A DNA stretch of 64,000 nt from Mimachlamys varia (Eukaryota; Mollusca; Bivalvia; Pectinida; Pectinidae): NCBI GenBank assembly GCA_947623455.1, contig OX392543.1, positions 18,784,757 to 18,848,756 of the forward strand. Reading direction: 5' to 3'. The notes under the pieces were generated by a model, which was not told where the DNA came from, searched no databases, and worked only from the letters and a program-made list of their open reading frames with translations. Below are positions 18,401 through 22,919 of the stretch, in pieces. Every line of letters starts with the position of its first letter. Position 1 is the first letter of the stretch. The position numbers were made by a program, and so were the translations under genes.

Positions 18401-21400
18401 ATTTAACTTAGCGATGTTCGCGCTGTAGTATTCAGCTAAATTACGATTGGTTAATTAAGTGGTTTAATGATAAATAAATATTTTTATTTAACTTGTTGAA
18501 GCTAATATTAATCAAGCAAACAGAATGGACACATTCTTTTTTGCGAAGTGTTTTTGTAAAATCTATTCATAATTTAATATGTTGATTTGTTGTAGTATAC
18601 AACAATTCACTGCGGTACAGAATCAGAAAACAACAAGTATGAAATTATTGGAAATATTCTCTCTCGATACCTCGATGTCTAATTAATGCGACAACACAAC
18701 TTTTACACGTTGTAAGTTTAATATGACTGCGGGGGACTTTATACTTCAGTGATAGCACTTTAAACCGGCAAACGTTCCGTGTATCGCTAGAAGGCTCACA
18801 CGAGCATACGGCAGTCTCCGTAATACACACGTTCTCAACACACACATTCACATCGCATGCACTGAGAAGTTGTCCCTAAATGACCATGGCTGTTAATAGG
18901 ACGAAAAAACAATCAAACCAAACCTCTACTACGACAGCTGGCAATGTTATGGAGCGTATGTAAATGTATTTATTATAGTCACGTGACACCGCTGTTGGTA
19001 AACTTCGTAGTGTCTGTTTGGGAGGTCGAAGTGGCATAGGTGAAATGTCAAAGTGACATGAGGCCAGGTCGACTCGTGTTGGGACGGGGTAATGTCAATG
19101 CACGTGATACAGGTGGGACACGAGCGTTAATAGGTGTTACAAGGGTGGTATTAATGTTAAGGCGTCATTCCAAGTCTTGACGGCCAATCACGACACAGAA
19201 AAGTTCCATTTAATGTGTTTTTAATCAAATATTTTTTGTTTATATTTCAGGGTTACAAAGAATGCAATCAGATTAAAATCATATCTTGATCTCCGCGCCG
19301 TTACGTAAACTTCTCTCTGCTGCGTTAAGATCTGAGATAATCCCATAGAGGGTCATGTTCCGATGACCTTTCGCATTAGCCAATCAAATTACTACTGGCA
19401 GAATCTTGACAGTGAAATTTTGAGGCGACAAAGCTTGCATAAACACATTTTTCCATTTAGTCACTCGTTACCAAAAAGTTCGTGCGGATTAATGTGACGA
19501 AATGGCTTGCTGCAAGATGAAAGGTCGTTTGAAAAATATTTTAGTGTTAAGTATAGAGGCGACAAAGGTCATCTGGACGTGACCTCTTATGGCATGTTGT
19601 CAGATCCTTGTAAAACGGAGTGAGAACAAGGATCTGTATTTTAATCAGATTGCAAAGAATGCGTATTGCTATTATATGTAAACAACGAAAAATAAACAAA
19701 AGTGATGACCGTCGAAGGCTACGCCCATATCAAGGTGTTGAGTTTTATAGAAAAATGCTTTATGTTCGTTTGAATAAAAAAACGTTTGCAAAAATCTCTC
19801 AAGAAATAGCCGAGATGTGACCAATATGGTTTCTCGTCCAACGGAAAAAATTTGGGGCATTATGGGAAAAAATCTATAAAGTTTTCGAGCGAGAACCCAA
19901 ATCTTTTTGAAGCCTAGAACCTAAACTACCATATAAAATGGATCTTTCCCCTATACATATAAATGCATAAAACTCTGGTCCAGTCCCAGAAGTAAATCAT
20001 AACGGCTATGTTTCACAATAAAGGGGTCGCATAAAAACCCGACGTTTGAGACCTTGACTTTTATAGGACAAAACTGAGGAAAGTCTGCAAATAAAACAAA
20101 TTTGCATAAAATAAGAATGTATTCTGTATGATTATGATAAATTCGGGAACGGGCAGCAGGGACATCACTGTCTGGTTTAAAACCATCACTCACCTGTTCT
20201 CAACGTAAAGGCAACCATCCCCCCCCACCCGAACCAACACTCACCTGTTCTCCAAGTATAATTACACAATCCTCCCCAAACCAACACTCAATTGTTCTCC
20301 AAGTATATTTCCTTAATCCCCACTAAACCAACACTCACCTGTTCTCCAGGTATAATTCCACAATCCTCCCCAAACCAACACTCAATTGTTCTCCAGGTAT
20401 AATTCCACAATCCCCCCAAACCAACACTCGACTGTTCTCCAGGTATAATTCCACAATCCTCCCCAAACCAACACCCAATTGTTCTCCAGGTATAATTCCA
20501 CAATCCTCCCCAAACCAACACTCACCTGTTCTCCAGGTATAATTCAACAATCCTCCCCAAACCAACACTCACCTGTTCTCCAGGTATAATTCCACAATCC
20601 TCCCCAAACCAACACTCACCTGTTCTCCAGGTATAATTCAACAATCCTCCCCAAACCAACACTCAATTGTTCTCCAGGTATAATTACACAATCCCCCCAA
20701 ACCAACACTCACCTGTTCTCCAGGTATAATTCCACAATCCTCCCCAAACCAACACTCAATTGTTCTCCAGGTATAATTACACAATCCTCCCCAAGCCAAC
20801 ACTCACCTGTTCTCCAGGTATAATTCCACAATCCCCCCAAACCAACACTCACCTGTTCTCCAGGTATAATTCCACAATCCTCCCCAACCAACACTCACCT
20901 GTTCTCCAGATATAATTCCACAATCCCCCAAACCAACACTCACCTGTTCTCCAGGTATAATTCCACAATCCTCCCCAAACCAACACTCACCTGTCCTCCA
21001 GGTATAATTCCACAATCCTCCCCAACCAACACTCACCTGTTCTCCAGATATAATTCCACAATCCCCCAAACCAACACTCACCTGTTCTCCAGGTATAATT
21101 CCACAATCCTCCCAAACCAACACTCACCTGTCCTCCAGGTATAATTACACAATCCCCCCAAACCAACACTCACCTGTCCTCCAGGTATAATTACACAATC
21201 CTCCCCAAACCAACACTCACCTGTCCTCCAGGTATAATTCCACAATCCTCCCCAACCAACACTCACCTGTTCTCCAGGTATAATTCCACCCCCCCCCCCC
21301 CTAACCAACACTCACCTGTTCTCCAGGTATAATTCCACAATCCCCCAAACCAAAACTCATCTGTTCTCCAGGTATAATTCCACAATCCCCCAAACCAACA

Positions 21401-22919: not shown

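Follow-up and report, generated by a model that had tools for sequence, protein, structure and literature searches.

What does a gene do with several dozen 5′ splice sites standing in a row directly behind its real one? This question is raised by a stretch of 64,000 nucleotides of the variegated scallop Mimachlamys varia (hereafter the window; chromosome 17, C17:18784757-18848756), where the first exon of a gene on the minus strand runs into a minisatellite whose units carry splice donors. The gene has three exons with 1,368 nt of coding sequence, which form one continuous open reading frame of 455 amino acids, and the whole genome (975,302,275 bases) was searched for its relatives and for similar arrays. 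Its protein matches PF00743 with 154.8 bits (gathering score 22), the best match among solved structures is 8b2d (query residues 4-449, E 5.7e-150), and the entry 6kbw, named trimethylamine monooxygenase, matches residues 1-450 (E 6.3e-143). Judged by these sequence matches, the product is a flavin-containing monooxygenase (FMO) that resembles trimethylamine monooxygenases. The features needed below are listed by their positions in the window.

22757-22919, minus strand: coding part of exon 1 (ATG ... TGG AGA ACA G), 163 nt, open reading frame continuous with exons 2 and 3
22755-22756, minus strand: donor 1, the GT of CAG/GTGAGT, the sole donor (1/56) yielding the full-length protein when the joined exons are translated
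22659-22661, minus strand: in-frame TGA created by donor 3 (AAC AGG TGA), which closes the reading frame whenever exon 1 is prolonged to donor 4 or a later one
20180-22790, minus strand: 47-bp minisatellite with 56 donor positions, of which the real junction is one, delimited by TRF and donor-anchored units
20278-22133, minus strand: interspersed donor-dead units 15, 17, 19, 25, 27, 31, 44, 46, 50, 51, 52 and 54 (GT lost, 12/56)
16471-22756, minus strand: intron 1, 6,286 nt, whose 5′ end is the array
16306-16470, minus strand: exon 2, 165 nt, acceptor ..GATAAAG/GTCTGG, donor GTATGT
14414-15453, minus strand: exon 3, 1,040 nt, ending with the stop codon

A row of splice donors behind exon 1

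The array was delimited by TRF at 20228-22790 (period 47, 55.1 copies, 89% matches, score 4000), and one degenerate outer unit, the last (about 20180-20230), stretches it to approximately 20180. Each unit joins 33 nt of exon 1 to 14 nt of intron 1, the latter starting with GTGAGT, so that the array begins within exon 1 and crosses its 5′ splice site, as does the human IFI6 minisatellite discussed below. The GT is kept in 44 of the 56 units and most of them therefore carry a consensus donor, another trait of the IFI6 type; the donor core reads CAGGTGAGT at 37 positions and CAGGTGCGT at seven, and has lost its GT at the remaining 12. In this regard the original prediction was accurate: it had described an amplification of the exon 1/intron 1 junction to about 55 copies of a 47-bp unit, with the same composition of exon and intron, and dozens of donors downstream of the real one, some of them without GT. 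All 12 losses fall at unit 15 or beyond, none among units 1-14. The motif CAGGTRAGT occurs 36 times inside the array and nowhere else in intron 1. Thirty-eight of the 56 units are distinct and eight, counting the exon unit itself, are identical to the exon unit; their lengths range from 45 to 49 nt, with 51 nt for the final one. The longest exact internal repeat covers 209 bp at an offset of 371 bp and points to a block duplication of recent date.

Read on the plus strand, the same array (20228-22790) shows 46 copies of CTCCAGGTATA after a pyrimidine-rich stretch, that is, a series of acceptor-like and recursive-splice-like AG/GT sites. A plus-strand gene using them as acceptors was considered and set aside, with no gene-like plus-strand open reading frame of at least 85 aa found nearby by eye.

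Related genes help to date the array. A protein search of the genome gave 52 matches, from which the close exon-1 sequences were taken up and the more distant FMOs left aside. Besides the gene in the window there are seven of them, namely five three-exon paralogs (C2, C11) and two partial copies (L032, without matching donor, and L037), and an array at the end of exon 1 is absent in all seven. The position of intron 1 is common to the FMO gene and the five paralogs, which shows the intron to be older than the array. Among the FMO gene and these seven copies, the array is private to this gene as far as the genome sequence tells. Minisatellites with a period of at least 10 as called by TRF take up 5,893 of the 64,000 bases of the window. 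In four sampled stretches they account for 3,603 bases out of 40,000, as against just 951 out of 50,000 in the stretches around the five paralogs.

Other repeats and coding-like sequences were observed in the window. A 27-bp minisatellite of 42 copies (9721-10853) lies 3.6 kb downstream of the FMO stop codon and is open in several frames on both strands, with a stop-to-stop reading frame of up to 434 aa, which may be trivial because 27 is a multiple of 3. A 157-bp tandem repeat of 6.5 copies is found at 37633-38642, and words similar to it were seen by eye in a 157-bp repeat of a sampled stretch on C12 (L047). The plus strand further holds, by eye, LINE-like reverse transcriptase reading frames with a possible ORF1 (48921-52252 and 45249-46154), THAP-like and DDE-transposase-like reading frames (32218-34229) and an aldo-keto-reductase-like exon (55450-55824).

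Reading frames and constraint at the downstream donors

For each of the 56 donors, exon 1 was extended to that donor, joined to exons 2 and 3, and translated. Through donor 2 (+47) translation ends after 95 codons and through donor 3 (+94) after 88, which places the two stops 87 and 155 nt, respectively, ahead of the exon 2/3 junction; with donors 4-56 it always ends at 86 codons, owing to the AAC AGG TGA that the exon frame reads across donor 3 (22661-22659). None of the 55 downstream donors keeps the frame open through exons 2 and 3, and between the stop and the exon 2/3 junction that follows it lie 87-2,630 nt. The usual position rule for nonsense-mediated decay asks for 50-55 nt; under this rule all 55 donors (2-56) are, by stop position, poison donors. 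The protein made through donor 1 is colinear with solved FMO 8b2d and with all ten scallop homologs aligned (predicted proteins, the best 10 of 120 listed, 71-83% identity), none of which carries an insertion at the exon 1/2 junction.

These data dispose of the coding role envisaged at first. It had been proposed that the frame depends on whether the donor number is a multiple of three; the uneven unit lengths mean that it does not simply track this number, and donor 4 lies at +140 rather than +141. Three units had likewise been taken to be fully open, allowing the insertion of 47 residues, whereas the exon frame meets the TGA within donor 3. A generator of in-frame isoforms that inserts 47-residue blocks near the FAD is thus refuted for this assembly, by the closed frames of all downstream donors and by the ten uninterrupted scallop homologs; nothing was found in its favour, and its probability is practically nil.

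No donor feature was found that favours donor 1, which speaks against its dominance. The U1 duplex energy is -14.1 kcal/mol for 34 of the 56 donors, donor 1 among them (the intron 2 donor of the same gene reaches -6.8 kcal/mol). Predicted accessibility is 0.019 for donor 1 and 0.010 on average for donors 2-14, a difference so small that a hairpin or accessibility was rejected as the selector of donor 1. Moreover, among competing donors SRSF1 can favour the intron-proximal site, as the DOK7 study shows (PMC5585400), so that dominance of donor 1 is not guaranteed.

Were the downstream donors kept for use, their nine bases should vary less among units than the other 38. Over units 2-55, mean divergence is 0.072 at the nine donor positions and 0.071 in the rest of the unit, and the donor window ranks 26 of 47 circular windows. 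The +1 G, altered in 12 of 54 units (0.222), is the fourth most variable of the 47 columns, and the AGTGGGG..AAGGAAATATAC subfamily has a dead donor in six of six units, yet was amplified. A gradient of homogenisation outward from the exon was also considered and discarded, identity to the exon unit having no trend along the row of units (Spearman r = 0.001, p = 0.99) and the most divergent part being the middle block. Of the two outcomes offered by the original prediction, a selected splicing switch is therefore not supported by the comparison of units, the donor positions being no better conserved, and a splice-neutral array fits best. That none of units 1-14 has lost its donor could, on the other hand, point away from neutrality.

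Candidate donor arrays at other exon ends

Three CAGGTRAGT motifs spaced 34-64 bp apart are matched 9,762 times in the genome, against 584 times for the reversed motif, while single sites number 42,303 and 9,630, respectively. Assuming at most one match per site, as in the 100 listed, 23% of the donor sites and 6% of the reversed ones start such a triple; matches inside one array are not independent. With an exact spacing of 47 bp there are 117 matches, in comparison with none for the reversed motif, and the 100 that were listed fall into 15 arrays on C1-C12, the FMO array apart, so that at least 15 exist. Shuffled spacers resemble one another as much as the real ones do (best pair 0.50 and median 0.34, against 0.51 and 0.36), which indicates that the 15 arrays are independent. 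Counted as arrays, the contrast at period 47 is at least 15 to 0, with 3.4 control arrays expected from the numbers of sites (P 0.03-0.05). Since the arrays were retrieved through the donor motif, the share of them that lies at junctions is not the share of all minisatellites.

The 5′ flanks of all 15 arrays were inspected, four of them after extension to reach the edge, and judged by an acceptor-like AG, an open frame and the homology to the repeat unit of the sequence preceding the first donor. For nine of the 15, the start of the array seems to lie in the last part of an exon, whose final 13-39 nt belong to the unit:

L050: 31 nt of exon in the unit, the acceptor for a longer exon form picked by eye
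L051: 39 nt of exon in the unit
L054: 28 nt of exon in the unit, no acceptor passing the mechanical test and one picked by eye
L055: 13 nt of exon in the unit
L056: 17 nt of exon in the unit
L058: 35 nt of exon in the unit
L064: 13 nt of exon in the unit if ungapped, or about 36 nt by TRF
L065: about 31 nt of exon in the unit
L067: about 35 nt of exon in the unit

Two more arrays (L053, L066) lie directly against an exon-like donor, their units containing less than 10 nt of exon. The four others (L059, L061, L063 and L068, on C5, C7, C10 and C9) show no convincing exon at the 5′ edge and could be arrays within introns, the exon having been lost or being situated farther off; L059 nonetheless passed the loosest form of a mechanical exon test. 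This test, weak alone, asks for an acceptor-like AG with at least 58% pyrimidines and an open frame, and was applied to all edges except that of L068. In its loosest form it was passed by 11 of 14 edges and by 207 of 465 control AG/GT positions taken from other sequence. When the exon had to reach at least 70 nt the counts were 9 of 14 and 102 of 465 (Fisher P 0.001), and with 65% pyrimidines in addition they were 7 of 14 and 73 of 465 (P 0.004). The edges thus stand out from a background that is itself not negligible, and two or three of the nine exon assignments above could be wrong. Domain support among the nine calls comes from two of the seven that were scanned (all except L054 and L067). 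L064 resembles the lectin domain of a GalNAc-transferase (PDB 6e4r, E 0.0038; Ricin_B_lectin, E 8.6e-5, below the curated cut-off), and L050 is saposin-like (SapB_1, E 6.9e-4, below cut-off; prosaposin in the PDB, E 0.03). No Pfam match was found for L051, L055 and L058, and a weak one for L056. Two identities were tried and dropped: a RAD51-like one for L065, for which the structure search stayed at chance level (E 0.63 or worse), and guanylate cyclase for L055, with no match in the PDB or Pfam. A fixed, spliceosome-like footprint of the unit was rejected as well, since the measured arrays anchored on an exon contain anything between 6 and 39 nt of it.

Arrays with other periods were seen on C1 (region 1020280-1055284). 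One of them, L048, starts from the donor of an exon that encodes a CUB domain (E 5.3e-6 in Pfam, above cut-off). By eye, roughly 4 nt of that exon are included in its 64-bp unit, and the array extends over at least 14 kb behind the exon. About 20 kb past its last listed match begins another donor array, L049, with a 34-bp unit that includes 23 nt of exon; it lies at the donor of an exon without a Pfam match of its own that follows a Sushi exon (E 2.1e-15). Both are possibly part of one LDLa/CUB/sushi gene.

The original prediction dealt with a single locus; judged by their sequence, further exon ends of this genome seem to have arrays built in the same way. In the open-licence literature, which excludes most subscription journals, minisatellites at splice junctions were not found described as a recurrent class. 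If the recurrence holds, it is what is new here, a single-locus precedent being already known in human IFI6.

Origin of the array and known systems

The reading that we favour, with a probability of about three in four, is that of a near-neutral minisatellite seeded at the junction, which probably belongs to a class that recurs in the genome and is no selected splicing device. As the sequence indicates, 47 bp straddling the 5′ splice site of FMO exon 1 would have been duplicated in tandem, and slippage together with block duplication would later have expanded the array to about 55 copies. A duplication spanning the junction keeps the first exon end and its donor and places all copies downstream, so that its cost is small if the first donor is used. 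In such a case, which the protein points to, donor 1 would win, the normal enzyme would be made and the whole array would be removed with intron 1, while the use of a downstream donor would add a frame-shifting or stop-bearing piece, as computed above, and probably send the transcript to nonsense-mediated decay. In the simplest account, a genome with many minisatellites would be expected to have some tandem duplications that span a 5′ splice site.

In a rival reading, the downstream donors might take a share of U1 and of splicing, with their transcripts decaying, so that array length sets FMO expression, a proposal that departs from the favoured reading solely in claiming a sizeable effect. 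All 55 downstream donors are poison by stop position, 33 of them equal donor 1 in U1 pairing, and in IFI6 two downstream repeat donors are reported to be used and to give three mRNAs (PMC4526556); the FMO donors are nonetheless without sign of selection, and we regard a sizeable effect as unlikely. Somewhat less unlikely, although still improbable, is that tandem duplication is promoted by the donor's sequence or by splicing itself, making donor arrays commoner than chance hits on junctions. The excess of triples at donor sites (9,762/42,303, against 584/9,630), the 117 to 0 matches at period 47 alone and an inverted repeat in the unit (ACCTG-GAGAA-CAGGT), paired in the predicted fold of one unit, argue for such a hot spot. 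Counted as arrays in place of dependent matches, however, the contrast at period 47 has a P of 0.03-0.05, a single control motif was compared, and selection sparing junction-spanning arrays could yield the same.

A further proposal takes the long first intron, which opens with more than 40 GT-bearing donors, as a sink for U1 that suppresses premature polyadenylation or boosts transcription. All 36 CAGGTRAGT of intron 1 do lie within the array, but donor positions are not conserved, five paralogs do without an array and the mechanism would be borrowed from other systems, which makes it very improbable. An assembly artefact is harder still to credit. The 209-bp exact repeat makes mis-assembly possible in principle, and the copy number may be a few units off; against this, the 2.6 kb of the array are shorter than a HiFi read and 38 of 56 units are distinct. 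The assembly was moreover built from 44-fold HiFi reads with a QV of 64.4, according to its genome note (PMC11252643).

The nearest precedent is the minisatellite of human IFI6 (6-16, G1P3), which Turri, Cuin and Porter reportedly described in 1995 (NAR 23:1854) as having multiple splice donor sites. Its repeat unit is of 12 nt, compared with the 47-nt unit and approximately 55 copies of the FMO array. In both cases a minisatellite lies across the junction and its units carry splice donors. In IFI6, two downstream units are reported to be used as donors and to lead to mRNAs for different protein isoforms (PMC4526556), whereas in FMO all downstream donors break the frame or meet a stop. IFI6 is also one locus, whereas further exon ends of M. 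varia seem to carry such arrays. The VNTR in intron 6 of hTERT is likewise an intronic tandem repeat, and its copy number influences how the gene is spliced (PMC3948165), but it lies more than 1 kb from exon junctions and acts by RNA:RNA pairing with no splice site duplicated, unlike the FMO array. Intron gain or sliding by tandem duplication likewise involves a duplication at or near a splice site, which creates or moves an intron (PMC4974935, PMC2891723); in FMO an older intron had its donor multiplied. Finally, the DOK7 study describes two competing donors 11 nt apart in intron 4, with one choice shifting the frame (PMC5585400), and the FMO array similarly sets donors in competition with the frame at stake, with 44 GT-bearing donors over 2.6 kb instead of two.

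A broader picture, held tentatively and with a probability of little more than one in three, is that junction-seeded donor minisatellites occur genome-wide, plausibly in the hundreds by extrapolation and with tens to hundreds of equally strong copies, and that a first-donor rule would keep their genes working, its leakiness through decay of frame-broken mRNA making array length a source of expression variation across the genome. To our knowledge, the choice of the spliceosome among equally good 5′ splice sites has mostly been studied with two or few sites. The FMO array is a natural series of 44 GT-bearing donors, from the real one on, with a simple readout, since protein is expected only from donor 1; if the recurrence holds, one genome would contain many such natural experiments in donor choice. 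The arrays also suggest that minisatellite formation across exon ends is tolerable, a point of relevance to the drift of introns and splice sites.
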